From Pseudomonadota bacterium (lineage in GTDB: Bacteria; Pseudomonadota; Alphaproteobacteria; Rhizobiales; Hyphomicrobiaceae), in the NCBI GenBank assembly GCA_018242295.1, contig JAFECE010000009.1, positions 124,001-188,000 on the forward strand: a stretch of 64,000 nucleotides of DNA. The letters run 5' to 3'. The translations under genes and the position numbers were made by a program. Below, piece by piece: positions 35,823 to 58,726 of the stretch (positions within the stretch are counted from its first letter, which is position 1; each line of letters starts with the position of its first letter). Under the pieces are notes generated by a model. The model did not search any database, was not told the DNA's origin, and saw only the letters and a list, made by a program, of their open reading frames with translations.

Positions 35823-35906
35823 CCACCGCCTCTTGCGGCCGGTTCACGCATCCCGTTGGCAATCCCATATGGCCGGCCAATGGCCGGTTTGCAATCGCCC
35901 GGAAGC

Positions 35907-35930
35907 CAGATATCTTTGCAGCTATATCGC
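35907..35930. promoter_or_regulatory. Candidate Mo-box (ModE site) upstream of modA
   Basis: GATAT at 35909-35913 and ATATC at 35924-35928 form an interrupted palindrome with CGATATAG on the reverse strand, close to ModE half-sites of the CGnTATAT type. It lies about 25 bases before the modA start, where a ModE-molybdate repressor would act, and modE itself closes the operon. The left arm is a poorer match. Confidence 0.5.
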
Positions 35931-35954
35931 AACTGGCAAAGGGAACTGTCCGCA

Positions 35955-36761: not shown

Positions 36762-36804
36762 CAAACGGTTCGAGCGACGGAGCGGCGAACGGAAAGGCAC
36801 ACCC

Positions 36805-38186: not shown

Positions 38187-38193
38187 CCCGCGT

Positions 38194-40093: not shown

Positions 40094-40102
40094 TCGACTT
40101 TC

Positions 40103-40132
40103 CCTGCGGTCGGTCATCCGGCCGGCCGCAGG
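40103..40132 (+). other. Intercistronic stem-loop between ydcS and ydcT
   Basis: CCTGCGGTCGG at 40103-40113 pairs with 40122-40132 (one G-U pair), with an eight-base loop. It has no U tract. Placed just after the binding-protein gene, it would stabilise the ydcS transcript or partly terminate before the membrane-component genes, as in other binding-protein operons. The second importer in the window has a similar hairpin in the same position. Confidence 0.6.
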
Positions 40133-40138
40133 CATCCG

Positions 40139-41158: not shown

Positions 41159-42093
41159 CCACCGTCGTTGCAGAAAGACAGAGAGGGATAGGCAACGCGA
41201 TCTCGGACGTCTTCTTCGTGCGCCCGCAACTTCTGACATTCCTCTTGTTGACGCCGCCGCTGCTCTGGATCGGCGTCGTCTATATCGGCTCGCTCTTCGC
41301 ACTGTTGCTGCAAAGCTTTTACTCGCTCGACGACTTCTCAGGCCTGGTCGTCCACGAATTCACGCTGTCGACGTACAAGCAGCTGCTCGAAGCGTCGAAT
41401 GCACAAATCATCCTGCGCACCGTCACCATGGCGGCGCTCGTCACCGTCACAAGCGCGATCATCGCGTTCCCGATCGCCTACTACGCGGCGCGATACGCAC
41501 GCGGCTGGAGCAAGGCGCTTTTCTATCTCGCGGTGATGATGCCGCTCTGGTCGAGCTATCTGGTGAAAGTTTATGCCTGGAAGCTGATCCTCGCCAAGGA
41601 GGGGATCATCACCTGGTTCGCAAACGTGCTGCATCTCCGGTGGCTGCTCGACGGCATTCTGGCGTTGCCCGTTGTCGGCGGCCCGTCGCTTTCGTTCAGC
41701 TATCTCGGCACCTTCCTCGTCTTCGTCTACATCTGGCTGCCGTACATGATCCTGCCGACGCAGGCGGCACTCGAGCGCGTTCCCGTAAACTTCATCGAGG
41801 CGTCCGCCGATCTAGGCGCCGATCCTCGCCAGACCTTCCGGACCGTAATTTTCCCGCTCGCGCTTCCCGGCATCGTTGCCGGATCGATCTTCACGTTTTC
41901 ATTGACGCTCGGCGACTACATCATCCCGCAGATCGTCGGCAATTCCCGCCTCATGATCGGGCAGGCCGTCTACACGCTGCAGGGGACCGCCGGCAACATT
42001 CCGCTCGCGGCGGCCTTCACAGTCGTCCCGATGCTGATCATGGCAGCTTATCTCTGGATGGCGAAACGCATGGGGGCTTTTGATGTCCTCTAA
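41155..42093 (+). CDS. ydcU: Polyamine-type ABC transporter permease (YdcU orthologue)
   Basis: The 312-residue membrane protein has six predicted helices, a first helix after [20 protein letters not shown] and the EAA-type loop [26 protein letters not shown]. It is PotB-like and pairs with YdcV to form the channel. The start GTG 41155 is coupled to ydcT; its end overlaps ydcV by 11 bases. Confidence 0.92.
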
Positions 42094-42901
42094 CGCCAAC
42101 CGCTCGACGCCGCTTGGGCTTCGGATCGCCGCGACCGCCGGATTGCTATTCCTTCATCTGCCGCTGGCGCTGATCTTTCTTTACGCATTCACGACGGAGG
42201 AAAAGAGCTTCGAGTTTCCGCCGCCTGGGCTCACAACAAAGTGGTTCGAAACCGCGTGGACAGCGCGGCCGGATATCTGGCCGCCGCTCTATCTGTCTCT
42301 GCAGGTCGCGGCCATTGCGACGGTGCTTGCTCTGATATTCGGAACGCTGGCGGCCGCCGCCCTTTCGCGAACGCGCTTCTTCGGCCGGGAATCGATCTCG
42401 CTGCTTTTCGTTCTCCCGATTGCGCTACCCGGCATCATCACCGGCATCGCGCTCCGCTCCGCCTTCGACATCATGAGCATACCGTTCTCGGTCTGGACGA
42501 TTATCCTCGGCCACGCCACGTTCTGTATCGTCGTCGTCTATAACAACGCGGTGGCGCGATTTCGCCGGCTGAACGGCAATCTCGTCGAGGCGTCTATGGA
42601 CCTTGGCGCCAACGCCTTTCAGACGTTCCGTCACGTCATCCTTCCGCAAATCGGTACGGCGCTTCTCGCGGGCGGCATGCTGGCGTTCGCGCTCTCATTC
42701 GACGAGGTGATCGTCACGACGTTTACAGCCGGACAACAAACGACGCTGCCGATCTGGATGCTGGGCGAACTCATCCGGCCGCGGCAGAGGCCGGTGACGA
42801 ACGTCGTCGCCGTCTTCGTATTCGTCGTAACGCTTTTGCCGATACTCGCAGCCTACTACCTGACGCGAGAAGGCGAACAGACGGGTGGCTCTTCGAAATA
42901 A
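42083..42901 (+). CDS. ydcV: Polyamine-type ABC transporter permease (YdcV orthologue)
   Basis: The 272-residue PotC-like protein has six helices, [19 protein letters not shown] near the start and the EAA loop [26 protein letters not shown] 42083 lies inside the end of ydcU. It is the second half of the permease heterodimer, followed 23 bases later by patD. Confidence 0.92.
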
Positions 42902-42924
42902 CGGACTTGAGACTGGAGGATAAG

Positions 42925-44352
42925 ATGCTCGACACCAATATGCTGATCGGCTCAGACTTCGTCGCCGGAACGGACGCGCCGGAACCCATCGTCAATCCGA
43001 AGACGGAAGACGTCATCACCAATCTGCCGGATGCTTCTGCTGCGCAGGTCGATGCGGCAGTCAACGCGGCGGCAAAGGCCTTCAAAACCTGGTCGCAGAC
43101 GACGCCGGTCGAACGTTCGACCCTGCTTTTGAAGCTCGCCGACGCCATAGAACGCGACGCTGAAAGCTTCGCGGCGCTCGAAGCGCTGAACACCGGCAAG
43201 CCGCGCATCCGCGTCTTGCAGGACGAGATGCCGGCGATCGCCGACTGCTTCCGTTTCTTCGCGGCAGCCGTTCGCAACATGCACGGACCCGTCGCCGGCG
43301 AATATCTGGCTGGTCACACGTCGATGATCCGCCGCGATCCCGTGGGTGTCGTCGGATCCATCGCGCCCTGGAACTACCCGCTGATGATGGCGGCCTGGAA
43401 GCTCGGCCCGGCGCTCGCCGGCGGCAACACGATTGTTCTGAAGCCTTCCGAGCAGACGCCGCTGACGCTTCTGAAGCTCGGCAAGATCATCGCCGACATT
43501 TTCCCCGAAGGCGTCGTCAACATCGTCGTCGGCAAGGGGGCAACGACCGGCTCGGCGCTGATCAATCATCCGAAAGTCTCGATGGTGTCGCTGACCGGCA
43601 GCATCGGCACCGGCCAGAAGGTGCTGCAAGCCGCGGCATCCAACATCAAGCGCACGCATCTGGAACTCGGCGGCAAGGCGCCTGTCATCGTCTTCGACGA
43701 TGCCGACATCTCGGCCGTCGTCGAGGGCGTGAAAATTTTCGGCTACTACAACGCCGGGCAGGACTGCACCGCGGCGTGCCGCATCTACGCGGGCAAGAAA
43801 GTCTACGACAATCTCGTTGCCGATCTCTCGAGCGCGGTGAACGGTCTGAAGTACAATCTGGCGAACGACGACGAGAACGACATCGGCCCGCTGATCTCGT
43901 CCGCTCAGAAAGCGCGCGTGCATGGCTTCGTCGAACGGGCGAGCCAGCAGAGCCACATCACGGCAGCGGCAGGCGGCAAGCCCGCAGCCGGTAAAGGCTT
44001 CTTCTTCGAGCCGACGGTTCTCGCGGGCGCCACGCAGAACGACGAGATCGTGCGCAAGGAAGTGTTCGGCCCCGTCGTCTCGATCACGCCGTTCGACGAT
44101 GCCGACGAAGCGATCGCCTGGGCCAACGATAGCGATTATGGATTGGCGTCTTCGGTTTGGACGCAGGACATCGCGAAGGGCATGAAGGTTGCGTCTCAGC
44201 TGCAATACGGCTGCACCTGGGTCAACACCCATTTCATGCTGATCAGCGAGATGCCGCACGGCGGCCTGAAAATGTCGGGCTACGGCAAGGATCTCTCGAT
44301 GTACGCGCTTGAAGACTACACCGTACCGCGTCACGTCATGGTGAAGCTGTAG
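42925..44352 (+). CDS. patD: Gamma-aminobutyraldehyde dehydrogenase (PatD/YdcW type)
   Basis: The 475-residue NAD-dependent aldehyde dehydrogenase has the oxyanion Asn150 in [15 protein letters not shown], the general base Glu247 in [11 protein letters not shown] and the catalytic Cys281 in [12 protein letters not shown]. Its length and position after ydcSTUV match E. coli PatD, which oxidises 4-aminobutanal to GABA. Related enzymes take other omega-aminoaldehydes or betaine aldehyde. A clear GGAGG lies six bases before ATG 42925. In this locus it could oxidise the aldehyde made by the phospho-lyase or by the B12 dehydratase. Confidence 0.88.
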
Positions 44353-44513: not shown

Positions 44514-45578
44514 ATGACGGGCACGGATGAGCTGACACACGAAGAGCTTCTGCAGCGGTTGCAGGTCTTGGCCGAGCGCGCCGCGAAGCGCTACGGCCTT
44601 TCCAATGACTGCACCCTGAAGCTGATCAACGTCTCCGAGAATGCAACCTACCGTGTCGAAAGCAGCTCGGGACAAAAGTGGGCGCTACGCGTTCATCGCG
44701 AACGCTATCATTCGCGCACGGGCATTGCCTCGGAACTCGCGTGGCTTTCGGCACTTCGCGAAAATGTAGGCGTAACGACTCCGACAGCGGTGAGGGGTCT
44801 CGACGGCGAATACATCCAAACGGTTGCGGTCACAGGGCTGGCCAATCCGCGAAACGTCGTGCTGTTCCAATGGGAGGATGGCGCGGAGCCGGCACAGACC
44901 GACGTCGCTGGTTTCGAGCTGCTTGGCGAGACCGCGGCCCGCATGCACGCGCACGTCCGCAAGTGGCGGCGGCCGCCCTGGTTCGAGCGCTTCTCCTGGG
45001 ACTTCGAGACCAGCCTCGGCAGTCGTCCCCATTGGGGCGACTGGAAGAACGGGATGGGCATGACGCCGGAGGCGTTGGCGGCCATCACTGAAACCGTTGC
45101 GCTGATCAAGCAGAGACTCGAGAATTTCGGTCAATCGCCCGATCGCTTCAATCTCGTCCACGGCGATATGCGCCTCGCCAATCTGCTGATGGATGGATCG
45201 ACCGTGAAGGTCATCGATTTCGACGACTGCGGCTTTTCCTGGCTTCTTTACGACTGCGCGACGACTGTTTCGTTTTTCGAACACACGCCCGAGGTGCCGG
45301 AGCTTCTGAAGGCCTGGGTGCGCGGCTATCGCCGGATCGGCGCGCTGAGCGAGGCGGAAGAAAACGAGATCGCGACGTTCGTCATGCTGCGCCGGCTTCT
45401 GCTTGTCGCCTGGATCGGCTCGCATTCGGAAACGGAGCTCGCCAAATCCATGGGTGTTGAGTACACGGCGAGTTCGATTCCGCTCTGCGAACAGTATCTT
45501 TCTCGCTATGGCAAGGTCGCCAAGAGCGAAGCTGCTGCACCGCAAAAAAAGGGCATCTTGAGCCGTATTTTCAGCTGA
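44514..45578 (+). CDS. APH-fold kinase (hydroxylysine/amino-alcohol kinase-like)
   Basis: The 354-residue protein has the aminoglycoside-phosphotransferase fold: nucleotide-binding Lys in QKWALRVHRE, catalytic loop HGDMRLANLL with Asp218 and Asn223, and the metal-binding Asp235 in VIDFDDCG. It resembles the branch that includes hydroxylysine kinase and homoserine- or choline-kinase-like proteins more than resistance enzymes. In that pathway the kinase works with an AGXT2L-type phospho-lyase, and such an enzyme is encoded at 55591. I therefore infer that it phosphorylates an imported amino-alcohol. It follows patD by 161 bases on the same strand. Confidence 0.75.
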   Translation: MTGTDELTHEELLQRLQVLAERAAKRYGLSNDCTLKLINVSENATYRVESSSGQKWALRVHRERYHSRTGIASELAWLSALRENVGVTTPTAVRGLDGEYIQTVAVTGLANPRNVVLFQWEDGAEPAQTDVAGFELLGETAARMHAHVRKWRRPPWFERFSWDFETSLGSRPHWGDWKNGMGMTPEALAAITETVALIKQRLENFGQSPDRFNLVHGDMRLANLLMDGSTVKVIDFDDCGFSWLLYDCATTVSFFEHTPEVPELLKAWVRGYRRIGALSEAEENEIATFVMLRRLLLVAWIGSHSETELAKSMGVEYTASSIPLCEQYLSRYGKVAKSEAAAPQKKGILSRIFS

Positions 45579-45641: not shown

Positions 45642-45669
45642 TTGACCCGCGAGCCGCTTCTGCTAGCTT
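45642..45669 (+). promoter_or_regulatory. Promoter of the AraC-type regulator gene
   Basis: TTGACC (45642-45647), a 16-base spacer and TAGCTT (45664-45669) form a good promoter about 40 bases before ATG 45708. The -35 TTG is in frame with the regulator and could be mistaken for its start codon. Confidence 0.5.
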
Positions 45670-45707
45670 TTTTCTCCGTGATATTCGCAGCTGCGCACCA
45701 GGAAACG

Positions 45708-46787
45708 ATGGGACTGGGGATTATCGACTTTGCAGCGACTGGCGCCGCGACCTCGATGGGGAAGGCGGCGGATCCGTCTGTTCTCGCTTCGGCCGCGACC
45801 GGTATCGTGAAGTTCATCGAGCGGCAGCGCGGCGACGTCGATCGCATTTTCGGCAGCGCCGGTATTTCACCTGAGATGGCCGGCTCGCCAACGCTGCAAT
45901 TGAGCCTCAATGCCTACTGTCGCCTGTTCGAGGAAAGCGCTCGGCTCACGCGTAATGATAACTTTGGCCTGTGGTTCGGTAACGCGTTTGACCCGCGAGA
46001 TCTCGGCCTATGGGGGTACGCATCGCTTTCCGCTCCCTCGCTCGGCGTTGCCCTCGAAACCCTCGTCGAACTCTTTCCGCTGCACCAGCAATCGTCATCG
46101 ATGGCGCTCAATACGTCACCTGAGGGATTGGTGAGACTCGAATATCGTGTCGACGCACCGCAGATCGTCGAACGCCGCCAGGACGCGGAATTGTCACTCG
46201 GCATGTTCCTCAATCTCATTCGCGAAGCAATGGGGCAGAGCTGGGCACCGGAGGAAGTTCACTTCGAACATCCAAAACCTGAAGGTTGGCGTGAGCACGA
46301 ACGCGCCTTCGCTGCACCCGCCTTTTTCTCGCAACCGACGAATGCCATCGTCTTCCGCCCGCAGATCCTGAAGCAGGTCATGCCGGCAGCTGATCCGCGG
46401 CTCATGTGCGCAATGAAACTGTGCCTCGAAAGGCTTTCAGAGCGTCGCGATGTGCGTTTCAGTATTACCGATCGCGTACGCAGCGCCGTGCGCGCCCGAT
46501 TGCCGGAAGGCTTCCCGCAAATCGAATGTGTCGCCGCCGAGCTGCGCCTCCCGCTCTCGACCATTCAACGCGAGCTTCATTACGACGGACTGAGCTACAG
46601 CAGCCTCGTCGAAAACACGCGGCGGGACCTAGCGCTGTCCTATGTACGCCAGCGCCAGCTCTCCTTCTCCGAAATTGCCTTCCTCGTCGGCTATTCCGAG
46701 CTTTCGGCGTTCAGCCGTGCCGTCCGCCGGTGGACGGGCCTCTCTCCGCGCGCGCTACGCGCGGAGGTTCTACGCAACCAAATCTGA
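45708..46787 (+). CDS. AraC-family transcriptional regulator (OruR/QhpR-like)
   Basis: The 359-residue protein has an Arabinose_bd-type sensor domain (about residues 20-220; LWGYASLSAPSLGVALETLVELFPLH) and a C-terminal pair of helix-turn-helix units (FPQIECVAAELRLPLSTIQRELHY, LSFSEIAFLVGYSELSAFSRAVRRWTG in parts). It resembles OruR and QhpR, which regulate ornithine and amine catabolism. AGGA lies five bases before ATG 45708. Lying between the two convergent amine-type operons, it is the best candidate for their inducer-responsive activator. Confidence 0.85.
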   Translation: MGLGIIDFAATGAATSMGKAADPSVLASAATGIVKFIERQRGDVDRIFGSAGISPEMAGSPTLQLSLNAYCRLFEESARLTRNDNFGLWFGNAFDPRDLGLWGYASLSAPSLGVALETLVELFPLHQQSSSMALNTSPEGLVRLEYRVDAPQIVERRQDAELSLGMFLNLIREAMGQSWAPEEVHFEHPKPEGWREHERAFAAPAFFSQPTNAIVFRPQILKQVMPAADPRLMCAMKLCLERLSERRDVRFSITDRVRSAVRARLPEGFPQIECVAAELRLPLSTIQRELHYDGLSYSSLVENTRRDLALSYVRQRQLSFSEIAFLVGYSELSAFSRAVRRWTGLSPRALRAEVLRNQI

Positions 46788-46816: not shown

Positions 46817-47596
46817 CTAAGCCTGCGCGATCGCATCCATGCTCTCGGGCAGGATCTGACCGCCGTCGACGATGATCGTTTGCCCCGTGATGTAGGCGGC
46901 TTCCTTGGATGCGAAGAAGAGGGCCGCGTAGCCGATGTCTTCGACCTTTCCGAGCTTCTGCAGCGGAATGGAAGCTGCCGCTGACTTCTCATACTCAGGT
47001 CCGAGCGCGGCGAGACCTTCCGTTGCGATATTGCCCGGCAGCACCGCATTGACGGTAATGCCGTACTTCGCGAACTCCATGCAGGCCGTACGCATGAAGC
47101 CGAGCTGTCCGGCCTTCGTCGCACCGTAGTGAGCCCAACCGGGAAAGGCGGTGACAGGGCCGGTAATCGACGACGTGATGACGATGCGTCCCTGATCGGA
47201 CTTCTTCAGATACGGCAGGCAGGCTTTGACCGACAGGAACGTTCCCTTGAGGTTCGTATCGGAAACGAAGTCCCAATCTTCCGGCGACAGCTCCTCGATC
47301 TTGGTCTGAGGGAAAATGCCGGCGTTTGCGCACAGGATATCGATGCCGCCGTAAGTCCGCGCGGTGGCCTCAGCGAGCATCTGCATGTCGCCCATGCTCG
47401 TGATGTCGGCCGCGAAACCCATAGCCGTGCCGCCGTCGGCACGAAACTGCTCCGCTGCGGCCTCGGCTTCGGCGAGATTGCGCGAGACGACGACGACCTT
47501 GGCGCCGCTCTTCGCAAAGACGCGAGCGATACCCTTGCCGATGCCCTTGCTTCCACCCGTGACGATGACGGATCGGCCTGCGATAGACGTGAGCAT
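46817..47596 (-). CDS. Short-chain dehydrogenase/reductase (FabG/UcpA-like)
   Basis: The 259-residue SDR has the cofactor motif TGGSKGIGKGIA, NAG at CANAGIF, the catalytic Ser in ITSSITGP, and YGATK with active Tyr and Lys. The GWAHYGATKAGQLGFMRTA and TVNAVLPGNI segments mark the FabG/UcpA-like group. It is the last gene of the leftward operon beginning with the diol dehydratase, so it could reduce or oxidise the aldehyde or alcohol product. An Arg following the dinucleotide site (VVVSRNLAEA) suggests NADP preference. Confidence 0.8.
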   Translation of the reverse strand: MLTSIAGRSVIVTGGSKGIGKGIARVFAKSGAKVVVVSRNLAEAEAAAEQFRADGGTAMGFAADITSMGDMQMLAEATARTYGGIDILCANAGIFPQTKIEELSPEDWDFVSDTNLKGTFLSVKACLPYLKKSDQGRIVITSSITGPVTAFPGWAHYGATKAGQLGFMRTACMEFAKYGITVNAVLPGNIATEGLAALGPEYEKSAAASIPLQKLGKVEDIGYAALFFASKEAAYITGQTIIVDGGQILPESMDAIAQA

Positions 47597-47660
47597 GAAT
47601 AAAATCTCCTAAGCGACGTGTTGTTGGTCTTGTTGAAGTCTCAGCTATTGCGGATTTTCT

Positions 47661-48470
47661 CTAAAGAGCGGCTTTGCGGTTGCGCGTGAGGAGCAGCATC
47701 GCCACGTAGCCGCCGAAGAGGACGATTGCAGCGGCTGCCGTCGAGATCGTTCCTAGGACGGGAACACCCGGCGTGTAGCCGGCCACCATCTTTGCATAGA
47801 GATACTTGGGCAGCGTGTTGTCGGCGCCCGTCGTGAAGAGAGACAGCGGGAAGTTGCCCCAGGACAGCAGGAAGGCGAACAGGCTTCCCGAGAAAATTCC
47901 GGGCATGAGAACGGGCAGCGTCACCTCGCGGAACGTCTGCCATCGCGATGCCCCGAGATCCGTGGCCGCTTCTTCGAGAGAGGGATCGAACGAATAGACC
48001 TGGATCGCCATGACCAGCGTCACAACGGGCGCGATCCAGACGAGATGCGCCAGCACCGCCGTCTTCCACGACAATGTGAAGCCCAAGGCGTTGAACCAGA
48101 GAAGCAGCGCGAGGCCGAGAACGGATTGCGGAAAGAAGATCGGTAGCAGAATGAACTTCTGATAGAGCTTCCGGCCGCGCCAATCGTAGCGGGCAAAGGC
48201 GAGCGCGCCGAAGAACCCGAGAACGACCGCGATCACCGTCACGACCGCCGCGATCGATAGCGACGTGTAGGCCAACGACCTCACTTCGAGTGAGTTGATC
48301 GTCTTGGACCACCAGTCGAAGCCGAAAGCCGTGATCGGAAATGTGAAGTAGCGGCTGGCCGTCATCGAAGCGATCAGGATCGTCGCGCTCGGAAGAAACA
48401 CGAACATCAGGACCGCGGCAGTCCAGACTCCGATGAGAATGTGACGAACGCTATAATTGCTGTCGGACAT
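47661..48470 (-). CDS. ABC transporter permease, PotC-like (second importer)
   Basis: The 269-residue protein has six helices (ILIGVWTAAVLMFVFLPSATILIAS at the start) and the EAA loop EEAATDLGASRWQTFREVTLPVLMPGI. It is PotC-like. ATG 48470 is preferred; the TTG at 48488 would overlap the upstream permease. It belongs to the operon carrying the diol dehydratase. Confidence 0.88.
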   Translation of the reverse strand: MSDSNYSVRHILIGVWTAAVLMFVFLPSATILIASMTASRYFTFPITAFGFDWWSKTINSLEVRSLAYTSLSIAAVVTVIAVVLGFFGALAFARYDWRGRKLYQKFILLPIFFPQSVLGLALLLWFNALGFTLSWKTAVLAHLVWIAPVVTLVMAIQVYSFDPSLEEAATDLGASRWQTFREVTLPVLMPGIFSGSLFAFLLSWGNFPLSLFTTGADNTLPKYLYAKMVAGYTPGVPVLGTISTAAAAIVLFGGYVAMLLLTRNRKAAL

Positions 48471-48474
48471 CGCG

Positions 48475-49335
48475 TTACCGCTTTCCAAGAATTTGATCGA
48501 GATCGAAACGCTTCAGCACCGTCAACACCAGCACGCTGACGACCAGCATCAGCAGCACCGCCAGCGCCGCGCCGAGAGGCCAGTTCTGGGCATACGTGAA
48601 GGCAATCTCGATATCGTGCGTGATGGGGATGATGCGTTGGCCGCCGAGGACCTTGGCTTCCGCGATCGCGCCGACCGCGAGTACGAAGGTCAGGAGCGAG
48701 CCGATCATCAAGCCCGGCGTGGAGAGCGGCAGTTCGACTTCGCGGAAAACCTGCCACCGCGTGGCGCCGAGATCGCGTGCAGCTTCCCGCATCTGGTTCG
48801 GAACCATCGCGATCCCGAGCGTCATCGGAAACAGCATGAACGGCAGATAGACGTAGACCATACCGAACAGGACTGCCGCTGGCGTGAAGAGAAAGTCGCC
48901 CATCTCCACGCCGAACAGGGCTTTCAATGTGCCCGGAAGCACGCCGCCCTTGATGAAGAACAACACCCATCCATAGAGTCGAATGTTCTCCGAAACGATG
49001 AGAGGGATCGTGAAGAGCAGCGTCAAGGCCGTCGACCAGCGGCCGAACACGCGAACAAGACCGTAAGCGACGGGGTAACAGATGAGCGCGAGCAGAACGA
49101 CGGTCAACGATGCGAGGCCGAGCGACCAAAGCAACGAAACGTAGGTGTTGTCACTGAAGATCCTCTCGTAATTTTCGAGAGAAGGTTCATGCCAGAGCCC
49201 GAACGTCCGCGGCGGCATGAAACTGAAGCCGACGACAGCGAGCAGCGGCGCTACGAAGCCGAGCAGCAGCAATACCATGATCGGTATTGCGGCTCGGCGC
49301 CCAGGCTGGGCGAGAAACGAACTATCTCCGCTCAT
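48475..49335 (-). CDS. ABC transporter permease, PotB-like (second importer)
   Basis: The 286-residue permease has six helices, starts MSGDSSFLAQPGRRAAIPIM and contains the EAA loop REAARDLGATRWQVFREVELPLSTPGL. ATG 49333-49335 overlaps the stop of the ATPase gene by four bases (ATGA). With the 47661 gene it forms the membrane part of the importer. Confidence 0.88.
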   Translation of the reverse strand: MSGDSSFLAQPGRRAAIPIMVLLLLGFVAPLLAVVGFSFMPPRTFGLWHEPSLENYERIFSDNTYVSLLWSLGLASLTVVLLALICYPVAYGLVRVFGRWSTALTLLFTIPLIVSENIRLYGWVLFFIKGGVLPGTLKALFGVEMGDFLFTPAAVLFGMVYVYLPFMLFPMTLGIAMVPNQMREAARDLGATRWQVFREVELPLSTPGLMIGSLLTFVLAVGAIAEAKVLGGQRIIPITHDIEIAFTYAQNWPLGAALAVLLMLVVSVLVLTVLKRFDLDQILGKR

Positions 49336-50396
49336 TCGTCGGCCACCAGAATAGCGTTTTCCGGGTCCCATCCGATCAGCACTTCGTCGTCGAGCTTGCC
49401 CTTGAAGGGCTGTTGGCGCAGCTTCTCGACGAGGAATACTTTTTCGCCGACGCGCACCTGATACTGGATGCGCGAGCCGAGCGCGTATTCGTTATAGAGT
49501 ATCCCCTTGAGGCTATTCTGCGCCTCGGCCGGAGTATCGAGGAAACGCAGAAACTCTGGACGAACGACAAGGCATTGTGCTTTGGCTTCGACGGAATTCG
49601 CCGGAACCTTGAAGCTCGCGCCGAGCGACTGCGACCGCACGGAGCCCGCGCCGTTCGCCTCGACGGGTATGACGTTGACGTCACCCATGAACTCGGAGAC
49701 GAAGCGCGAGCGCGGCGTCGAATAGATTTCGTTGGGCGAGCCGACTTGAATGAGTTTGCCGCGGCGCATGACACCGATCCGATCGCTCATCACCATTGCC
49801 TCTTCGAGGCTGTGCGTGATGTAGACGAATGTCTTGCCGGTTTCGCGATGGATATCCTTGAGTTCCTTTTCAAGTGTCTTGCGAAGCTTGTAGTCGATCG
49901 CGGATAGCGGCTCGTCGAAGAACAGGATTTGCGGGTCAAACGCGAGCGCCCGGGCAAGCGCCACGCGCTGGCGTTCGCCGCCCGAGCACAGCGTGACGTT
50001 TTTGGAGTAATAGTCGGCGGGAAGATGCAGCTGCTGCATCAGTTCGCGCGCGCGCTTCTCGCGGACTGCCGGATCGACGTTTCGGATCTTCAGCGCGAAC
50101 TCAATGTTTTGCCCGACCGTCCTGTGCGGGAAGAGAGCGAGCGATTGAAACACCATGCACGTCGGCCTCTCGTTGGCCGGGGTGTCGTTGATACGCTTGT
50201 CGTGGAGCAGAATGTCGCCCGATGTCGGCTTCTCCATTCCCGCGAGCATGCGGATCAAGGTGGTCTTGCCGCTGCCGGAGGGGCCGACGATCGTGAAGAA
50301 TTCACCTTCGCCGATGGAGAGATTGACGTCATCGACGGCGGCGAGGGTGCCGAACGCTTTGCGGACGTTCTTCAATTGCAGGATGGGCTTTGACAT
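49332..50396 (-). CDS. ABC transporter ATPase, PotA-like (second importer)
   Basis: The 354-residue ATPase has Walker A GPSGSGKTT, Q-loop VFQSLALFPHRTV, signature CSGGERQR (Cys in place of the usual first Leu), Walker B ILFFDEPLSAID and switch ITHSLEEAM, then a TOBE-type C-terminal domain. It is PotA-like. ATG 50394-50396 fits; a 43-codon upstream extension runs through the intercistronic hairpin and is rejected. Confidence 0.88.
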   Translation of the reverse strand: MSKPILQLKNVRKAFGTLAAVDDVNLSIGEGEFFTIVGPSGSGKTTLIRMLAGMEKPTSGDILLHDKRINDTPANERPTCMVFQSLALFPHRTVGQNIEFALKIRNVDPAVREKRARELMQQLHLPADYYSKNVTLCSGGERQRVALARALAFDPQILFFDEPLSAIDYKLRKTLEKELKDIHRETGKTFVYITHSLEEAMVMSDRIGVMRRGKLIQVGSPNEIYSTPRSRFVSEFMGDVNVIPVEANGAGSVRSQSLGASFKVPANSVEAKAQCLVVRPEFLRFLDTPAEAQNSLKGILYNEYALGSRIQYQVRVGEKVFLVEKLRQQPFKGKLDDEVLIGWDPENAILVADE

Positions 50397-50449
50397 TGCG
50401 GTCAACGGTGGAGTTCCAACTTTATCGGAAAACTGATGAGAAATGCTTT

Positions 50450-50480
50450 GGGCCTTCCGCTTATCAACGGCGGAAGGCCC
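50450..50480 (-). other. Intercistronic stem-loop after the second binding-protein gene
   Basis: GGGCCTTCCGC at 50450-50460 pairs perfectly with 50470-50480 around a nine-base loop. On the transcribed strand it follows the binding-protein stop codon by about 50 bases and is not followed by a U run. It probably blocks 3' exonucleases and so raises binding-protein expression relative to the ATPase and permeases. Confidence 0.7.
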
Positions 50481-50530
50481 ATGCGTTGTGTGTTGCGCCG
50501 CATTTTTAGTCACGGCGCAGCGCATTAGCC

Positions 50531-51685
50531 TCAGGTCTTTTTCGCTGCGTTCCAGATGTCGAGCAACTTGTCGTAATCGGGAACGATATCGTACTCGACG
50601 GAGCGCGCCATCTCCTCATCAAGGCTGTCCCACTGGATAGCTTCAAGCTGCTCCTTCGAGAAGAGCTTGAAGCACTCGGGATTGCCCATTTGAGCGACCG
50701 GGTTGAACGTGCCCTCGGCAAACGCGACCGTGTGCGCGACGGCGGGATCCTGCACGTATTCGAGGAATTGCTCGGCGAGCGGTGAGCTCACGGGGTTATT
50801 GACGACCGACGTAATTTCAATCCACGCGATGCCGCCCTTGCCGCCTGCGAAGGGACCCTTATTCGGCGTGATGGCACGAAGGTTCAGGTGACCGTCCGCG
50901 CGGGCGGGCGAGACCGAGTACGATCCGCCCGTGAGGTGGCAATCGATTTCGCCGGAAACCAGCGCCTGGTTCATCGTCGCGATATCGCCGACAACCTTCT
51001 TGTTCTTGAGGACGCGCTTCGCGGTCTCCTCGAACTTGGCCACTTCCTCTGCTGAATGCGGCTTGTACGGATCAAATCCCGCGATCGCGCAGATGCCGAA
51101 GACGTTCCAGTCATCGGATTCAAGAATGCCGAAGCGGCCCGCCAATTTCGGATCGTTGAAAAGATCCCAACCCTGATCCTCGGCTGTTTTCCGGCTGATC
51201 TTGTCGGTGTTGACCACGAACGAGTATGGCCCGAAGCGCTGAGCCATGCCGAGCAATTCTTTGCCGGAGTCATCCATTGCCCATTTGTAGGGCGGCTTGA
51301 ACTGCGGCAGCATCTTGTCGAAGTATGGCTCGAACTTCGCGCGGTCCAACGGTTTGATCAGCTTCTCGGGCATCATGATTTTGCGTGCCCAGGGATTGTT
51401 GACGTTGATGAGATCCCAGACGTTGATCTCGCCGGCGCGCAGACGGTTGATCATCGTCGGATCGTTGGTCAGGCTTTCGGCCTTGACGTTCGCGCTCTTG
51501 GATGAGCGGAACGGGTCGAGCACCTGGGCCGAGTTGTAACCTTCCCAACAAAGAATATTGAGTTCCTTGTCACGGGCCGCGTATGCGGGGCGTGAGAATG
51601 GACCCATCTGACTGGCGGCGAACGTCGCCGCGACAGACGCTGACGTTTTCATGAAGTTGCGGCGCGTGAGGTGGCTGTCAAACAT
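50531..51685 (-). CDS. Tat-exported PotD/PotF-like substrate-binding protein
   Basis: From ATG 51683-51685, with AGGAG upstream, the 384-residue protein has a twin-arginine signal (TRRNFMKTSASVAATFAASQ) with cleavage near AYA-ARD, then a PotD-type binding fold (LNILCWEGYNSAQVLDPF, INVWDLINVNNPWARK, EIDCHLTGGSYSVSP, GGIAWIEITSVVNN). Tat export means it is folded in the cytoplasm before export, unlike YdcS. The ligand is probably an amine or amino-diol, given the gene neighbours. It heads the transporter part of the dehydratase operon. Confidence 0.88.
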   Translation of the reverse strand: MFDSHLTRRNFMKTSASVAATFAASQMGPFSRPAYAARDKELNILCWEGYNSAQVLDPFRSSKSANVKAESLTNDPTMINRLRAGEINVWDLINVNNPWARKIMMPEKLIKPLDRAKFEPYFDKMLPQFKPPYKWAMDDSGKELLGMAQRFGPYSFVVNTDKISRKTAEDQGWDLFNDPKLAGRFGILESDDWNVFGICAIAGFDPYKPHSAEEVAKFEETAKRVLKNKKVVGDIATMNQALVSGEIDCHLTGGSYSVSPARADGHLNLRAITPNKGPFAGGKGGIAWIEITSVVNNPVSSPLAEQFLEYVQDPAVAHTVAFAEGTFNPVAQMGNPECFKLFSKEQLEAIQWDSLDEEMARSVEYDIVPDYDKLLDIWNAAKKT

Positions 51686-51918
51686 GTCTGTCACTCCTGG
51701 TGGGCGAAAGATGATGTTGTTGCCCAAAAACTGGGCCCGAACGAAAGCGATCGAAGGGGGCGCGCCGGCGGGCGAGCACGAGTCGGAAGGAGCGCTTCAA
51801 CAGTCGATCACGTCATATTCAAAGTCCCCCTATGACAAAATCACTGTAGGCGTGCGGGTGCCAAGTTGATTTGACTTTCTCCTACGGAAACTTGACCCTC
51901 TAGGCCGAGTCAAGCCGT

Positions 51919-52614
51919 TTACGTTAGCCCCATCAGAGCCTTGAGTTCCGCGCTCGACATGACGTGACCATAGATCATGTTCATGATCTCGAGTTCCTTG
52001 TGATGAAGCTCGTCGGAGCCGGCCGCGCAGCAATCCTCCACCACGACGACCGCGAAGCTCTCGTCGGCAAGACTGCGGACGGTCGAGGAAACGCACTGGT
52101 CCGTAAAAATCCCGCAGCACACGACGGTTTTGATGCCGAGGTTGGTTAGGATCAGCCGCAGGTTGGTTCCGGTCAGTGCACTGTCCGTCGTCTTCGTAAC
52201 CACGATCTCCTCGCCGACAGGGAGAAGCTCCGGAACGATCTGCGACGGTGACTCATCTTTGGGCAACAGCAGGTTGTTCCAGCCCGGCATCTTTTGCGAC
52301 AGCGACCGGTCGCGGCCATCCTTCGTCTGGCAGGCGATGCGGGCGAACAGGCATTCGATGCCGTTTTTCCGGAATGTCTGCAGCAGATCCTTCGTTCGCG
52401 GCAGAACGATATTGTGCATGCGGTCGTGAAACGGTGTCCACGCGTCGAACCGGCGTTGCTCTTCCGCCGAGAGCGAGGCCCGGTCCAGCCGGGCGAGGTA
52501 GGTGTTTTGAACGTCGATAACGAGGAGGGCCGTGGTTTGCTTGGAAAGATCCGGATCGTCTGGCTCCGGAGCGCCGTCGTAGTAGATGGATCGATAGGCC
52601 GTCTTCCAGCTCAT
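51919..52614 (-). CDS. Isochorismatase-like cysteine hydrolase
   Basis: The 231-residue protein has the triad of the family: Asp34 in LLVIDVQNTYL, Lys141 in VVTKTTDSAL, and Cys174 in GIFTDQCVSSTVRS. The wider family includes nicotinamidase, N-carbamoylsarcosine amidase and ureidoacrylate amidase as well as isochorismatase, so an amide or carbamoyl substrate is as likely as a vinyl ether. It starts 10 bases after the dehydratase small-subunit stop, so it belongs to the same operon and presumably the same pathway, but its step cannot be assigned. A 233-base gap separates it from the binding protein. Confidence 0.83.
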   Translation of the reverse strand: MSWKTAYRSIYYDGAPEPDDPDLSKQTTALLVIDVQNTYLARLDRASLSAEEQRRFDAWTPFHDRMHNIVLPRTKDLLQTFRKNGIECLFARIACQTKDGRDRSLSQKMPGWNNLLLPKDESPSQIVPELLPVGEEIVVTKTTDSALTGTNLRLILTNLGIKTVVCCGIFTDQCVSSTVRSLADESFAVVVVEDCCAAGSDELHHKELEIMNMIYGHVMSSAELKALMGLT

Positions 52615-52624
52615 GCCCGTCCTT

Positions 52625-53053
52625 TCAGAAACGTTTTTTGTAGAGAGAGCGGCGCTCGTAGACGTCCGCGGCCTCTTCGATAAAGGCCGCGACGCCCTCG
52701 GCGCCGTAGGTTTCGCGGAGATCTCTGGCGACCGCGATCAGCTCGTCCTTGGAGTTCGCGCGGCCCGGACGCAACAGCTCATAGACCCGCATGATCACGT
52801 CCTGAGGCACATCCACGAGTTCGGCGCCTCGCTCGAAATTGGCGGCGAGTGTCGGCCGTCCGGCCGCCGTCGCAATCTCCGCTTGCTGACGAAGCGCCCG
52901 GCCCGTGATCCGAAGATCCTCGAGGGTCACGCGGTCGGAGAGCACGCCCTCGAGCGTGATGTCGTCAAGCGTCTTGCCGGCCTTCGTCTCGACGACATCG
53001 GGCCGGTTTTCGGCGAGCGGATAGTCGGCAACCGTCAGAAGCTTCTGAGTCAT
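52625..53053 (-). CDS. B12-dependent diol/glycerol dehydratase, small subunit
   Basis: The 142-residue protein matches PduE/DhaE-type gamma subunits: YPLAENRPDVVETKAGKTLDD, ITLEGVLSDRVTLEDLRIT, ALRQQAEIATAAGRPTLAANFERGAEL in parts and DVIMRVYELLRPGR. It completes the alpha-beta-gamma enzyme. ATG 53051-53053 overlaps the stop codon of the large/medium fusion gene by four bases (ATGA), ensuring equal synthesis. Confidence 0.9.
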   Translation of the reverse strand: MTQKLLTVADYPLAENRPDVVETKAGKTLDDITLEGVLSDRVTLEDLRITGRALRQQAEIATAAGRPTLAANFERGAELVDVPQDVIMRVYELLRPGRANSKDELIAVARDLRETYGAEGVAAFIEEAADVYERRSLYKKRF

Positions 53054-55332
53054 GCGGCCGCTCCGATGAACGTCACGTCGATCTCTTCGGGCTCGGCGCC
53101 TTCGGAGGTCATTTCGGTCTCGATCGCGTAGATGAGCGAAACTTTTGCATGATAACGCGAGCCCATCGCTTCGCCCCGCGTCGGCACGATGACGGGTTCC
53201 GGCATTTCGCCGAGTGCGTAAGCGGCCGCGTTGAGCCCCATACGCTTGTAATGTTCGAGCTTGGTGATCGGCGAGTTCGAAAACAGTTCGAGATTGTTGT
53301 GCGGCAGCCGGTCTTTCTGGTGGATGACGGCAGTCCCCTTCGCCTGGATCCCAATCCCGATACCGGAGCCCGCAAGCCGCGCCGCGCTGAGCCCCAGGAA
53401 CGACGTATCGGCCGTATGACGCATGCGAACGACACGAGCCGCGCACCCGCCTTCCGTAATGCCCGCGATCAGCACGCGCAGAATGGCCGAGAGCGGATGC
53501 CCCGCAACCGTTTGGAAGAGCTTCAATCCGAAGGCGGGGCTGATGCCGATGACCACCTCCCGCTCGTTGCGCGTCGCGGCAGCGGGGCCGATTGTCCTGT
53601 AGGCGATCCGCGCGACTTCGGCCGGACGGTAGGCAGCTTCGACCCTCAACACCTCTTGCCGAGTCAGCACATCGCGGATGGCGGCGATTTCCTCGCGCCG
53701 ATCTTCGCTGAGACGATAGCCCGTGCCCGGCCCCTGGTAATCGTTCGGATTATTGACGGCGCTGACGATCCGCCCATCCCGGACGACTGCCGAGGTTTGC
53801 AGGTAGTCGCCGGAAACGCGAAGCCGCACGAGCTTCAAAAGATTTTCCGCTTCTTCGCCGAATCCCCGCGCCGCAAGCGCCTTGATGACGTCGATCACCG
53901 TAATCGACCGCGCATAAATGGCTTCGCTGATCATGGCGACGTCCCGGCCCGAGAACGTGCGCGTTTCGTCGGAGCCGGACGCCGCGACGACACTCAGCTT
54001 CATATCGTTGGTCGGTTTCGCAAGCCCGAGCTCTTCGAGAACGGCGCTGATGGCGTCGACGGCGCGTGCCCGGAGTTCCATGACGCGCGTCTCACCGACA
54101 GGAGTGAGCCCGCCGTCGGCCTCGAAGTCGCGCTGGAGAACCAGATAATCCTCTAGTTCCTCGCCGTTGAGCAGTGAGGCATTGAACGAATTGTCGTACT
54201 TCAGGATCGAGCCGAAACCGGAACAGATGAGGTCGGACCCCGCAACGAGATACGGCAGGATTTTCGCACCGACGCGGATCTCTGATTCCGTCGCGCGTGC
54301 ATCGTTTCCGGATGCACATTCGAGATCGAGCCAGACGGCGATTAGGTTTTCCGCCATCAATTCGCGCATGCCGCCGGGAACCGTGCACGTCACCGGAGCC
54401 CCATCGATGCCGCCGTTCTGCGTGCCCTGGGCGCCCATGGCGCGCTGCAGGCAAAGGCAACGCGCTTCGAGATAGAGCAATGATTTGCGATCGTGAAATC
54501 CCATCAGCAACTCTGACCCCGCGCCGGATGTGCACCGCATCTTGATGCCGCGCGAGGCGTAGGCCGCCGCCAGAAACGCCTTGGACCAGGGTGTGTCGTC
54601 CCCGTCGACGAAACTCTTCTCGGTTCCATAGACCGATACGGTCTCGGCGTACGAGGTGAATCCCGCCATGCCGATCTTGAGTTCTTCCGCTTCTTCGCTG
54701 GAACACTGAAAGAGCGTGCCCCAACGTCCGACAGCGGCCCCAACCGCACAGGCAACGGCATTTGACCAGGAGTTGCGGGCAACCCGCATCGTCGTCTCGA
54801 TTTCGTCGAATCCGAACGCCACGGCGGTGGCGGCATCGGCCGCCATCTGCAATGGGTCATCCTTGGCGTTCGTCACGTGCGCCTGGTTGCCCGGCGTCTG
54901 GCGCGCCCGCATCTTGCTGTAGGCAAACGCGATCTCGAGCGACGATAGATGACTGACGACCTCGGCCAGTTTGGCGGGTGTCATGCCGTGAGCCAGACGC
55001 ACGAGCTCCGTTCGCGGCACGTTCATATCGACGAGCATGCGCGCCACTTCGAGGGATGGCATCGCCATGGCTTCCGGCGCGATTTCCGGATCGAGATGGT
55101 ACCGCGCGATGAAAAAGTCGATCATGTCGAAATCTTGGGACCCGATCCCGTCCATCGATTCGACGACGCCTGCGCCAAGCGAAAATCCCGGCTTCGGATC
55201 GAAGGGGCTCTTAAACGCCGAAAAGCCGTTTGCCGCATCCTCGGCCGCGAACTTGTCAAGCCGGAGCGGCCGCTCGTCCCAATCGGAAAACCGCTTCCAG
55301 CGATTTGGCCGTGCGTGCGAGTCTTCCGTCAT
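53050..55332 (-). CDS. B12-dependent diol dehydratase, fused large and medium subunits
   Basis: The 760-residue protein joins a PduC-like large subunit (about residues 1-560) to a PduD-like medium subunit (about 590-760; VVIGISPAFGLKLFQTVAGH, GSGIGIGIQAKGTAVIHQKDRLP). Matching it by eye to remembered K. oxytoca PduC needs a constant offset of 9 residues and no gaps across the active site. Gln150, His152, Glu179, Glu230, Gln305, Asp344 and Ser371 correspond to the catalytic and ion-binding Q141, H143, E170, E221, Q296, D335 and S362. Two pocket residues differ: Ser301 is Asp310 and Gln336 is Ala345. The enzyme converts 1,2-diols to aldehydes through adenosylcobalamin radicals. It is the first gene of the leftward operon; no reactivase or shell gene accompanies it. 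Confidence 0.9.
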   Translation of the reverse strand: MTEDSHARPNRWKRFSDWDERPLRLDKFAAEDAANGFSAFKSPFDPKPGFSLGAGVVESMDGIGSQDFDMIDFFIARYHLDPEIAPEAMAMPSLEVARMLVDMNVPRTELVRLAHGMTPAKLAEVVSHLSSLEIAFAYSKMRARQTPGNQAHVTNAKDDPLQMAADAATAVAFGFDEIETTMRVARNSWSNAVACAVGAAVGRWGTLFQCSSEEAEELKIGMAGFTSYAETVSVYGTEKSFVDGDDTPWSKAFLAAAYASRGIKMRCTSGAGSELLMGFHDRKSLLYLEARCLCLQRAMGAQGTQNGGIDGAPVTCTVPGGMRELMAENLIAVWLDLECASGNDARATESEIRVGAKILPYLVAGSDLICSGFGSILKYDNSFNASLLNGEELEDYLVLQRDFEADGGLTPVGETRVMELRARAVDAISAVLEELGLAKPTNDMKLSVVAASGSDETRTFSGRDVAMISEAIYARSITVIDVIKALAARGFGEEAENLLKLVRLRVSGDYLQTSAVVRDGRIVSAVNNPNDYQGPGTGYRLSEDRREEIAAIRDVLTRQEVLRVEAAYRPAEVARIAYRTIGPAAATRNEREVVIGISPAFGLKLFQTVAGHPLSAILRVLIAGITEGGCAARVVRMRHTADTSFLGLSAARLAGSGIGIGIQAKGTAVIHQKDRLPHNNLELFSNSPITKLEHYKRMGLNAAAYALGEMPEPVIVPTRGEAMGSRYHAKVSLIYAIETEMTSEGAEPEEIDVTFIGAAA

Positions 55333-55590
55333 GGGTTGCGCTCTCGACGATGCGTGGTGCGATTGCAGGCGGATGTAACGATAGCCCGAGCGCTGTCAGG
55401 GAGTTTGACCAGAGCCGCCTCGAAGTTGACGGGTCCTTGGGCTCAAGTCCACGTTCGGCATCGTCACTTGAGCGTAAACTGAACAGACCCGGCCACGAAG
55501 GGTCAAGCCGTTGCCAGCGGCCTATCCTATACTAGACGAAACCGAAGCGAAAAGTCGTGCATTTGCCAGGGAGCTTGCCCGAGGGGCGTT
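55333..55590. promoter_or_regulatory. Divergent control region, dehydratase operon / PLP enzyme
   Basis: This 258-base spacer must hold the promoters of both the dehydratase operon and the PLP enzyme, so it is where an amine-responsive activator would act. A TATACT box at 55528-55533 lies about 60 bases before the PLP-enzyme start, but its -35 partner is weak. I looked for a cobalamin riboswitch (B12 box) on both strands and did not find one. Confidence 0.35.
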
Positions 55591-56928
55591 ATGGAAGCTA
55601 CACGAAAAATTCTTGATCTCAACGCCTTCGACATGAACGCAGCCGACACGCTTGCGCCCGCGGTGACGAACCTCGTCAAACGCAGGAAAAAGACCTTCGG
55701 CCCAACCTCGATGCTCTTTTACGAGCGCCCGTTGAATCTCGTCAAAGGCGAGGGGGTCTGGCTCTACGACGCCGACGGCACACGCTATCTCGATGCCTAC
55801 AACAACGTCCCGTCGGTGGGTCACTGCCATCCGCGCGTCGTCGAAGCCATCTCGCGCCAGCTCGGCACGCTCAACACGCACACGCGATACCTTTACGACA
55901 ATATCTACACGTATGCCGAACGGCTGCTCGGCACCATGCCGAAGGCTGTCTCGAACATCGTATTCACCTGCACCGGGAGCGAAAGCGGCGATCTTGCCCT
56001 GCGCATCGCTCGCGCAGTCACCGGAGGCACTGGCTTCATCGTCACCGACAACGCCTATCATGGCAACACAACGACCATGACGGAGATTTCACCGTCATCC
56101 GCCAGCGCCGAGCCGAGACCGCCCTACGTATTCCTCGTGCCGGCGCCGGACACCTATCGCTATGGCAGCGAGGCCATCGGACACCGCTTTGCCGAGGACG
56201 TCCGCTCAGCAATTGCGGCTATGAAGGCCGCAGGCATTCGCCTCGCCGGGTTCAACGCCGACAGCATCTTTTCAAGCGACGGCGTTTTCCCGGGCGAGCC
56301 GGGATTCCTGGCCGAAGCCGTCAAGGCGGTTCGCGACGCCGGCGGCGTTTACATCGCCGACGAGGTGCAGCCCGGATTCGGCCGCACGGGCGAAAAAATG
56401 TGGGGGTTCGAACGCCACGGCCTGGTACCCGACATGATCGTCATGGGCAAGCCGATGGGTAACGGCTACCCGATGGGCGGCGTCGCTGTGAAGCCGGCGA
56501 TGCTCAAGGCATTCGGCGCGAAGTCGGGCTACTTCAACACATTCGGCGGCAATCCGGTCGCGGCCGCTGCCGGACTGGCCGTCCTGGATGTCCTCAAGGA
56601 CGAAGGGCTGCAGCGGAATAGCCTCGAAACTGGAGCCTATCTGCGCTCGGAGCTTCGTAATGCCGGAGCCGAAGGCGATCGCATCGGCGATGTCCGCGGC
56701 GCTGGACTTTATATCGGCGTCGAGGTCGTCAAGGATAAGGCGTCACGCGAGCCCGATCGCAAGCTTGCCGAGAAAATCGTCAACGGTATGCGCGCGCGCA
56801 ACGTTCTCATCGGGACGGCCGGGGGCCATGGCAACGTACTGAAAATCCGTCCGCCGCTCTGCTTCAATCGCGAGCACGTCGGGATCTTTGTCGAGGCGTT
56901 TAAAGGCGCGCTAGCCGCAGCGACCTGA
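55591..56928 (+). CDS. Class III PLP enzyme, AGXT2L / amino-alcohol-phosphate phospho-lyase type
   Basis: The 445-residue fold-type I enzyme has the PLP aspartate Asp257 in VYIADEVQPGFGRTG and the Schiff-base Lys287 in MGKPMGNGYP. The segments NNVPSVGHCHPRVVEA, NTHTRYLYDNI, PAPDTYR, YFNTFGGNPV and NVLKIRPPLCF follow the animal AGXT2L1/2 pattern (ethanolamine-phosphate and phosphohydroxylysine phospho-lyases) rather than ordinary omega-aminotransferases. Such lyases remove ammonia and phosphate from a 1-amino-2-phospho-alkane to leave an aldehyde. The kinase that would make the substrate is at 44514. An omega-aminotransferase role remains possible. It is divergent from the dehydratase operon. 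Confidence 0.82.
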   Translation: MEATRKILDLNAFDMNAADTLAPAVTNLVKRRKKTFGPTSMLFYERPLNLVKGEGVWLYDADGTRYLDAYNNVPSVGHCHPRVVEAISRQLGTLNTHTRYLYDNIYTYAERLLGTMPKAVSNIVFTCTGSESGDLALRIARAVTGGTGFIVTDNAYHGNTTTMTEISPSSASAEPRPPYVFLVPAPDTYRYGSEAIGHRFAEDVRSAIAAMKAAGIRLAGFNADSIFSSDGVFPGEPGFLAEAVKAVRDAGGVYIADEVQPGFGRTGEKMWGFERHGLVPDMIVMGKPMGNGYPMGGVAVKPAMLKAFGAKSGYFNTFGGNPVAAAAGLAVLDVLKDEGLQRNSLETGAYLRSELRNAGAEGDRIGDVRGAGLYIGVEVVKDKASREPDRKLAEKIVNGMRARNVLIGTAGGHGNVLKIRPPLCFNREHVGIFVEAFKGALAAAT

Positions 56929-58664: not shown

Positions 58665-58726
58665 CAATTGGCCCTGTGCGATGGCGTGCCTCGACCCGGC
58701 ACGCATCGCAGCGTCTGCTATTGTTG

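Follow-up and report, generated by a model that had tools for sequence, protein, structure and literature searches.

A probable RMM2-type gene island without a shell and with a candidate amino-diol B12 dehydratase in a Hyphomicrobiaceae genome

What does a B12-dependent diol dehydratase do among genes for amine import and amino-alcohol breakdown? The question is raised by a gene island in the 64,000-nucleotide stretch of DNA analysed here (the window; positions 124,001 to 188,000 of contig JAFECE010000009.1, assembly GCA_018242295.1, family Hyphomicrobiaceae). The best overall explanation, in which we have about even confidence, is that the island is a relative of the RMM2 pathway that lacks a microcompartment shell and uses the dehydratase as an accessory entry for an amino-diol. 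RMM2 (Rhodococcus and Mycobacterium microcompartment type 2), described in 2014, pairs a diol dehydratase with a short-chain dehydrogenase/reductase (SDR), a phosphotransferase, an aminotransferase-fold enzyme and an amino acid permease, in the available sections of PMC4207490. Common to RMM2 and the window, as far as the excerpts of PMC4207490 and PMC8007038 describe the former, are the diol dehydratase, the SDR, the APH phosphotransferase, the aminotransferase-fold or class-III pyridoxal phosphate (PLP) enzyme and an amine transporter. Every gene named in a preliminary description of this DNA is present, at or near the place and in the family given there; its statement that no described pathway has this gene set does not stand, since RMM2 loci combine the same kinds of enzyme.

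The dehydratase is encoded on the minus strand by a fused gene for the large and medium subunits (53050..55332; a single open reading frame of 760 amino acids with PF02286 at 707.8 bits and PF02288 at 97.3 bits) and by a small-subunit gene (52625..53056, minus strand; PF02287, 169 bits). The domains of all three subunits and the catalytic residues of B12 diol/glycerol dehydratases are present. A search for matching dehydratases gave 134 loci, which became 121 after removal of 13 short matches and 101 distinct sequences after removal of 20 near-duplicates. Relatives were sought with patterns derived from the window protein, and the best 80 of the 139 obtained were retained; counts therefore favour near kin, and distant members may have been missed; no actinobacterial dehydratases were seen among the matches listed. 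Residues are given in Klebsiella numbering, anchored on H143, which we take to lie in the HVTN motif. This numbering reproduces Q141, E170, Q296, S301, D335, Q336 and S362 as they appear in the excerpt of PMC7674605.

Position 301 is Asp in 92 of the 101 distinct sequences, the window's own included, and Ser in the other nine. All 92 D301-type sequences retain Q141, H143, E170, E221, T222, Q296, D335, S362 and F374. Also fixed in them are N178, W180, T295, G299, D301, G302, A303 and S373, with P304 in 91. Position 336 is Ala in 80, Thr in nine, Cys in two and Val in one, and Gln in none of the 92. The nine S301-type sequences have S301, C302, I303 and P180, together with Q336 and M373 in seven cases and A336 and L373 in two. 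In the window enzyme, which belongs to this D301 subfamily, the aligned pocket residues are Asp310 (Ser301 of Klebsiella diol dehydratase; codon 54403..54405, minus strand), Ala345 (Gln336; codon 54298..54300, minus strand) and Ser382 (position 373), and the Ser301/Gln336 pocket of characterised diol dehydratases is absent. A quick tree separated the two types by a single branch with support of 100, under a long-branch warning. The fixation of Asp301 across the subfamily was new to us, and none of the papers listed by searches of the open-licence literature dealt with an Asp301 dehydratase or with this shell-less gene set.

According to the excerpts of PMC9850924 and PMC7674605, Ser301 and Asp335 contact the C3 hydroxyl of the substrate, Gln336 belongs to a neighbouring hydrogen-bond network, and the S301A/Q336A double change accommodates longer diols. 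A fixed Asp at the C3 site points to a cation or hydrogen-bond donor at C3 of the substrate. A cationic diol, charged at C3, would fit Asp301 and is a good candidate. The preliminary description had proposed a cationic amino-alcohol or amino-diol, and this residue comparison, which was beyond its reach, supports a cationic amino-diol as a good candidate substrate of the dehydratase. We infer an order in which 3-amino-1,2-propanediol comes first and glycerol and 1,2-propanediol are real rivals.

If one of those rivals is the substrate, the enzyme would be an ordinary 1,2-propanediol or glycerol dehydratase. Both branches of the island would then lead to propanal or 3-hydroxypropanal and share their downstream steps, a bifunctional C3 island that corresponds to the second option of Axen et al. 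for RMM2. The retained catalytic residues agree with this alternative, and an Asp could hydrogen-bond the 3-hydroxyl of glycerol. However, Ser301 and Gln336 of the C3 pocket are replaced in all 92 sequences, and a table in PMC7674605 gives reduced kcat/Km on 1,2-propanediol for the S301A and Q336A variants of the Klebsiella-type enzyme. We regard this alternative as doubtful, yet the most serious of those considered. An acidic residue gained in the pocket, and the amino-alcohol genes that lie beside the dehydratase in most of the 61 long-flank relatives described below, would also suit a B12 amine lyase acting on N-substituted ethanolamines or 1-amino-2-propanol in place of the kinase/lyase route. 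That is highly improbable, as the diol-binding residues Q141, H143, E170, E221, Q296, D335 and S362 are unchanged in 92 of 92 sequences and the literature places residue 301 close to C3 and away from the two oxygens that react (PMC9850924, PMC7674605, in the sections available).

The dehydratase was found in 22 of 297 genomes sampled from the order: 17 have the D301 type, four a split S301 type and one a fused S301 type. Residue 301 was read in 16 of the 17 D301-type genomes; the two fragments of the remaining one, G038, miss that stretch and were typed by their 69-77% identity. In a sample of the class, eight of 337 genomes gave a dehydratase match, the window genome included. It was not found in the four other sampled genomes of the same genus (G053, G152, G177 and G289) or in eight sampled genomes of the same family. 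The distribution is patchy, and several metagenome-assembled genomes (MAGs) labelled Hyphomicrobium do have the dehydratase. A second fused type, in loci L018 (genome G256) and L146 (G443), is 44-45% identical and has Ser301 but Ala336 and Leu373.

In its domains and catalytic residues the D301 type is the same as the dehydratases of pdu and dha systems, for example in Klebsiella. It differs from them in the fused large and medium subunits, in the changes of Ser301 to Asp, Gln336 to Ala, Thr, Cys or Val, and Met373 to Ser, and in the reactivase (DDR, PF08841), which was found in none of the 17 D301-type genomes, of which G114 is only 71% complete. The reactivase was found in all four genomes with split PduC-type genes and was not found in the one fused S301-type genome searched (G256), G443 being outside that search. 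Reactivases are thought to swap the medium subunit for a look-alike of their own, according to the excerpt of PMC7674605. A fused medium subunit would not be swappable, which is why we link the fusion to the missing reactivase. We tentatively suggest, at clearly less than even confidence, that the D301 enzymes form a new class of B12 radical dehydratase by specificity, amino-diol dehydratases that convert 3-amino-1,2-propanediol or a related cationic diol to an amino-aldehyde and can do without a reactivase owing to the fusion and to the lack of suicide inactivation by the substrate. The same absence argues against the glycerol alternative, since glycerol dehydratases need a reactivase. A pdu/dha identity for the system was rejected on the missing reactivase, the lack of a shell in the window genome and the changed pocket.

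The enzymes around the dehydratase were compared with solved structures using phmmer. The predicted APH-fold amino-alcohol kinase (44514..45578, plus strand; PF01636) matched 6ef6 at 292 bits, with the next structure at 56 bits. We take 6ef6, listed in the database as an aminoglycoside phosphotransferase, to be the (S)-1-amino-2-propanol kinase of the M. smegmatis RMM compartment. Kinase residues H216-x-D218, N223 and D235-F-D237 are near-invariant across 56 sequences. The class-III PLP enzyme, putatively an amino-alcohol-phosphate phospho-lyase of the AGXT2L/ETNPPL type (55591..56928, plus strand), gave 385 bits with 5g4i, a phospholyase, and 354 bits with 6tor, an ethanolamine-phosphate phospho-lyase, followed by 179 bits. 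For the SDR (46817..47596, minus strand), of the 1-amino-2-propanol dehydrogenase or aminoacetone reductase type by similarity to solved proteins, the closest entries were 6ci8 (290 bits), 6ci9 (289), 3pk0 (285) and 3rih (281), and the next reached 179. The first two carry the database name 3-oxoacyl-ACP reductase and are presumably the aminopropanol dehydrogenase of the M. smegmatis RMM. Predicted amino-alcohol handling by the kinase and the phospho-lyase is thus well supported, and the corresponding proposal of the preliminary description is supported by homology. The island resembles AGXT2L/ETNPPL systems (5g4i, 6tor) in the sequence of the PLP enzyme and its pairing with an APH kinase, and differs from them by the link to an importer and, in some relatives, to the B12 dehydratase.

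We counted neighbouring genes around the 61 of the 92 distinct D301-type sequences for which at least 15 kb of DNA was available, most of which come from the best 80 of the 139 relatives. The SDR was present in 50, the kinase in 43, a class-III PLP enzyme in 42 and the isochorismatase-fold hydrolase in 39 of these long-flank loci; given this recurrence, the association of the genes is not due to chance. Ten of the 42 PLP enzymes are of the window's type, six are of the Shinella type, which is 58% identical to it, and 26 belong to a group labelled AT_b, 24% identical to the window's enzyme, whose nearest solved structures are putrescine aminotransferases (168 bits, for one member). Among the 297 order genomes, the kinase (E up to 1e-40) was found in 15 of 17 with the D301 type and in 60 of the 280 others (Fisher p 3e-8), and the corresponding figures for the hydrolase (E up to 1e-50) are 11 of 17 and 19 of 280 (p 1.4e-8).

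These associations did not make the dehydratase the centre of the system. Locus L122, from a genome of the same family (G001) that gave no dehydratase match, holds, in this order, the kinase, AraC regulator, SDR, an APC permease, hydrolase, PLP enzyme and an aldehyde dehydrogenase. Identities to the window proteins are 69% for the kinase, 66% for AraC, 80% for the SDR, 79% for the hydrolase and 70% for the PLP enzyme, with 38% between the aldehyde dehydrogenase and PatD; for the permease, 63% identity was seen with one from Mesorhizobium. L122 is the window's island minus the dehydratase and with another transporter. Six further loci, L123 to L128, also from genomes without a dehydratase match, contain the hydrolase, SDR, kinase, class-III PLP enzyme and the ABC importer, and L128 adds bacterial microcompartment (BMC) genes; all seven were chosen because hydrolase and kinase matches lay near each other. 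The importer's binding protein shares 74-79% identity with its window counterpart in L123, L124 and L127 and 55-57% in L125, L126 and L128. As the same set of hydrolase, transporter, SDR, kinase and PLP enzyme occurs without the dehydratase, the importer is not tied to it. The dehydratase looks like an optional, accessory entry route to the island, and the idea of a system built around it is not supported, given these seven loci, one of them from the same family.

The hydrolase gene (51919..52614, minus strand; PF00857) encodes an isochorismatase-fold, amidase-like cysteine hydrolase that keeps D34, K141 and C174. These residues are near-invariant across 63 sequences and presumably form the catalytic triad of isochorismatase-fold hydrolases. 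The hydrolase was considered as a partner of the dehydratase and rejected: of the 19 order genomes that have it without a D301 dehydratase, 14 carry the kinase. From their patterns, both hydrolase and importer therefore go with the kinase module.

The importer is made up of two permeases of PotC type (47661..48488) and PotB type (48475..49371), an ATPase of PotA type (49332..50525) and a Tat-exported solute-binding protein of the polyamine (PotD/PotF) type (50531..51727; PF13416, TAT_signal_seq above cut-off), all on the minus strand and placed by family matches, so that a complete PotABC-like transporter with its PotD/F-like binding protein is present. In NCBIfam the ATPase and permeases match Pot proteins best, with scores under the cut-offs, whereas no Pot family was matched by the binding protein. 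The sole solved relative found for the binding protein is a putrescine-binding protein, at 33 bits. W61, W302 and E304 are invariant across 26 binding-protein sequences. On this weak 33-bit alignment they line up with the tryptophans and the amine-binding aspartate of PotD. These residues would fit an amine ligand, without naming it. In relatives, the slot between hydrolase and SDR holds either a polyamine-type importer or an APC permease (PF13520); L031 and L030, whose dehydratases are 91 and 94% identical to the window's, differ in transporter type. In plasmids of Shinella and Agrobacterium, the dehydratase genes are nested within those of a carbohydrate-type importer, and genes for the SDR, phosphotransferase, class-III enzyme and GntR follow in the same run. 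What amine-type and polyol-type importers would have in common is an amino-alcohol or amino-polyol.

Such single runs bear on the strict form of the preliminary description, in which one imported amino-diol serves importer, dehydratase and kinase/lyase alike and in which PatD and the second importer are included. Besides the Shinella and Agrobacterium arrangement, Asp301 is consistent with it, and a PatD-type enzyme could oxidise 3-aminopropanal. We nevertheless consider it unlikely, given the close binding proteins of L123, L124 and L127 and the kinase, SDR, hydrolase and PLP enzyme of L122 (69-80% identical), all in genomes without a dehydratase match. PatD (42907..44352, plus strand; NF010000 at 786 bits, above cut-off, aminobutyraldehyde type) and a second binding-protein ABC importer (38939..42901, plus strand; PF13416, PF00005 and PF00528 twice) are indeed present, as had been described. 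Neither is conserved past close kin: PatD lies beside the kinase only in the close Hyphomicrobium relatives L030-L032, L037 and L093, and the permease and ATPase genes of the second importer only in L031, L032 and L093.

We return to the reading as a shell-less RMM2 relative. No PF00936 match was found in the window genome, with positive controls in E. coli and Synechococcus. A single aldehyde dehydrogenase query from L088 gave two partial matches in the window genome (24 bits, 24-28% identity), and no close relative of the CoA-acylating enzyme. The BMC domain occurs in 13 of the 17 D301-type genomes, and BMC-H in at least 13 of the 61 long-flank loci, a lower bound from flanking DNA only. In L129-L132, L134 and L137-L139, BMC-H, BMC-T and a relative of the CoA-acylating aldehyde dehydrogenase sit with the amino-alcohol genes; the dehydratase of L132 lies on a separate contig of the same genome. 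BMC labels placed on the dehydratase tree required 11 changes against 12.5 for shuffled labels, with 47 of 500 shuffles as low. This suggests that the shell was gained and lost across the tree, the labels being limited to flanking DNA.

Beyond the shell and the CoA-acylating enzyme, the window differs from RMM2 in its polyamine-type ABC importer, AGXT2L-type lyase and AraC regulator, RMM1 being described with GntR in the sections available, and in having an isochorismatase-fold hydrolase; according to Axen et al., RMM1 hydrolases are absent from RMM2 (PMC4207490, excerpt). With the 1-amino-2-propanol (aminoacetone) utilisation systems called RMM1, Aut or Aaum the island shares a dehydrogenase, phosphotransferase, class-III PLP enzyme and hydrolases; unlike the window, RMM1 has a shell and an aldehyde dehydrogenase and no dehydratase, in the parts of PMC4207490 and PMC6620236 at hand. 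As a shell was looked for in the window genome and not found, we class the island as a variant of the RMM2 gene set that lacks a shell, rather than as an RMM2 microcompartment.

Downstream, RMM, renamed Aaum for aminoacetone utilisation (PMC8007038, excerpt), has been proposed to yield propionyl-CoA in the available text of PMC8156839. Axen et al. preferred a dehydratase not used by the RMM2 compartment, with a bifunctional compartment as the alternative (excerpt of PMC4207490). The ordinary C3 dehydratase can draw on this second option. Three methylmalonyl-CoA-mutase-family matches in the window genome could in principle take propionyl-CoA, and Paracoccus yeei TT13, which has RMM2, can grow on propylene glycol, in the excerpt of PMC8156839. 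That growth was attributed by the genome authors to a route to pyruvate, on the grounds of lactate dehydrogenases and the lack of a pdu operon (PMC5773746). A CobA/CobO-type adenosyltransferase is present in the window genome. The aldehyde dehydrogenase that follows the PLP gene in L031 has no close copy there (best 42%), and PatD may be the aldehyde sink in its place.

In the pathway we favour, the dedicated amine importer would bring in small amino-alcohols and the hydrolase, on the amino-alcohol side, would probably free the amine from an amide. By homology, the SDR would interconvert amino-ketone and amino-alcohol, the kinase would phosphorylate the hydroxyl, and the phospho-lyase would remove ammonia and phosphate to give an aldehyde for oxidation by a separate dehydrogenase. 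The substrate of the B12 dehydratase would most likely be a vicinal diol whose C3 bears a cationic or strongly hydrogen-bonding group, for example 3-amino-1,2-propanediol, and its product an amino-aldehyde.

Several points weigh against this pathway. The substrates of all island proteins are predictions from sequence, Asp301 could equally bind the glycerol 3-hydroxyl, and the nearest solved relative of the binding protein scores 33 bits. The dehydratase and the kinase/lyase pair are alternative routes to an aldehyde, and the need for both is unexplained. The lyase reading is weaker for the 26 AT_b loci, and PMC6620236, in the text available, reads the RMM PLP enzyme as an aminotransferase yielding lactaldehyde. 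Seven of the 61 long-flank loci lack SDR, kinase and PLP enzyme alike in the available DNA; L083, L085, L088 and L090 have the importer and PLP gene with no kinase or SDR detected, and the D301-type genomes G038 and G114 gave no kinase match.

The leftward run from SDR to fused dehydratase, with spacings of 64, -14, -40, 5, 191, 10 and -7 bases, is likely one operon. This is least sure across the 191 bases that separate the binding-protein and hydrolase genes, where relatives have one or the other of the two transporter types. The PLP gene is divergent from the dehydratase, with 258 bases between them. An AraC-family gene (45642..46787, plus strand; PF12625, PF12833), probably the local regulator, recurs beside the SDR or kinase in relatives. 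At gathering thresholds, the 64-kb window gave no match to a cobalamin riboswitch or to any other Rfam element. An ABC-2 type exporter pair (56980-58730; PF01061 permease, PF00005 ATPase) adjoins the PLP gene and is syntenic in the Hyphomicrobium relatives L029-L032, L037 and L093. Left of the second importer, 35856-38586 holds ModABC-like molybdate genes and a divergent ModE-like regulator, the first assigned by PF13531 and the remainder judged by eye.

Some relatives have other gene contents. A class-I glutamine amidotransferase (PF00117, checked in L048) lies near the hydrolase position in L048, L051, L056 and L060, and L064 and L070 have both proteins. In L080, L081, L084 and L086, from MAGs labelled Halieaceae, Paracoccaceae and Sphingomonadales, the D301 operon is minimal and the gene immediately preceding the dehydratase encodes an aldehyde dehydrogenase; the L081 enzyme has close matches among several types, general or betaine-aldehyde. 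In Roseovarius spongiae (L066:6637-9986), the SDR and dehydratase genes come after those for a glutamine-synthetase-family protein (PF00120) and an iron alcohol dehydrogenase (PF00465).

Collectively, the comparisons show that many Alphaproteobacteria have an RMM2-like gene set, some together with a shell and others lacking one. As the dehydratase is optional in this set, the purpose of the RMM2 dehydratase becomes directly testable. If the proposed specificity is true, the D301 enzymes would add a new substrate class to the few known for B12 dehydratases, and they would provide a natural reactivase-free dehydratase of use for engineered 1,3-propanediol and 3-hydroxypropionate routes.

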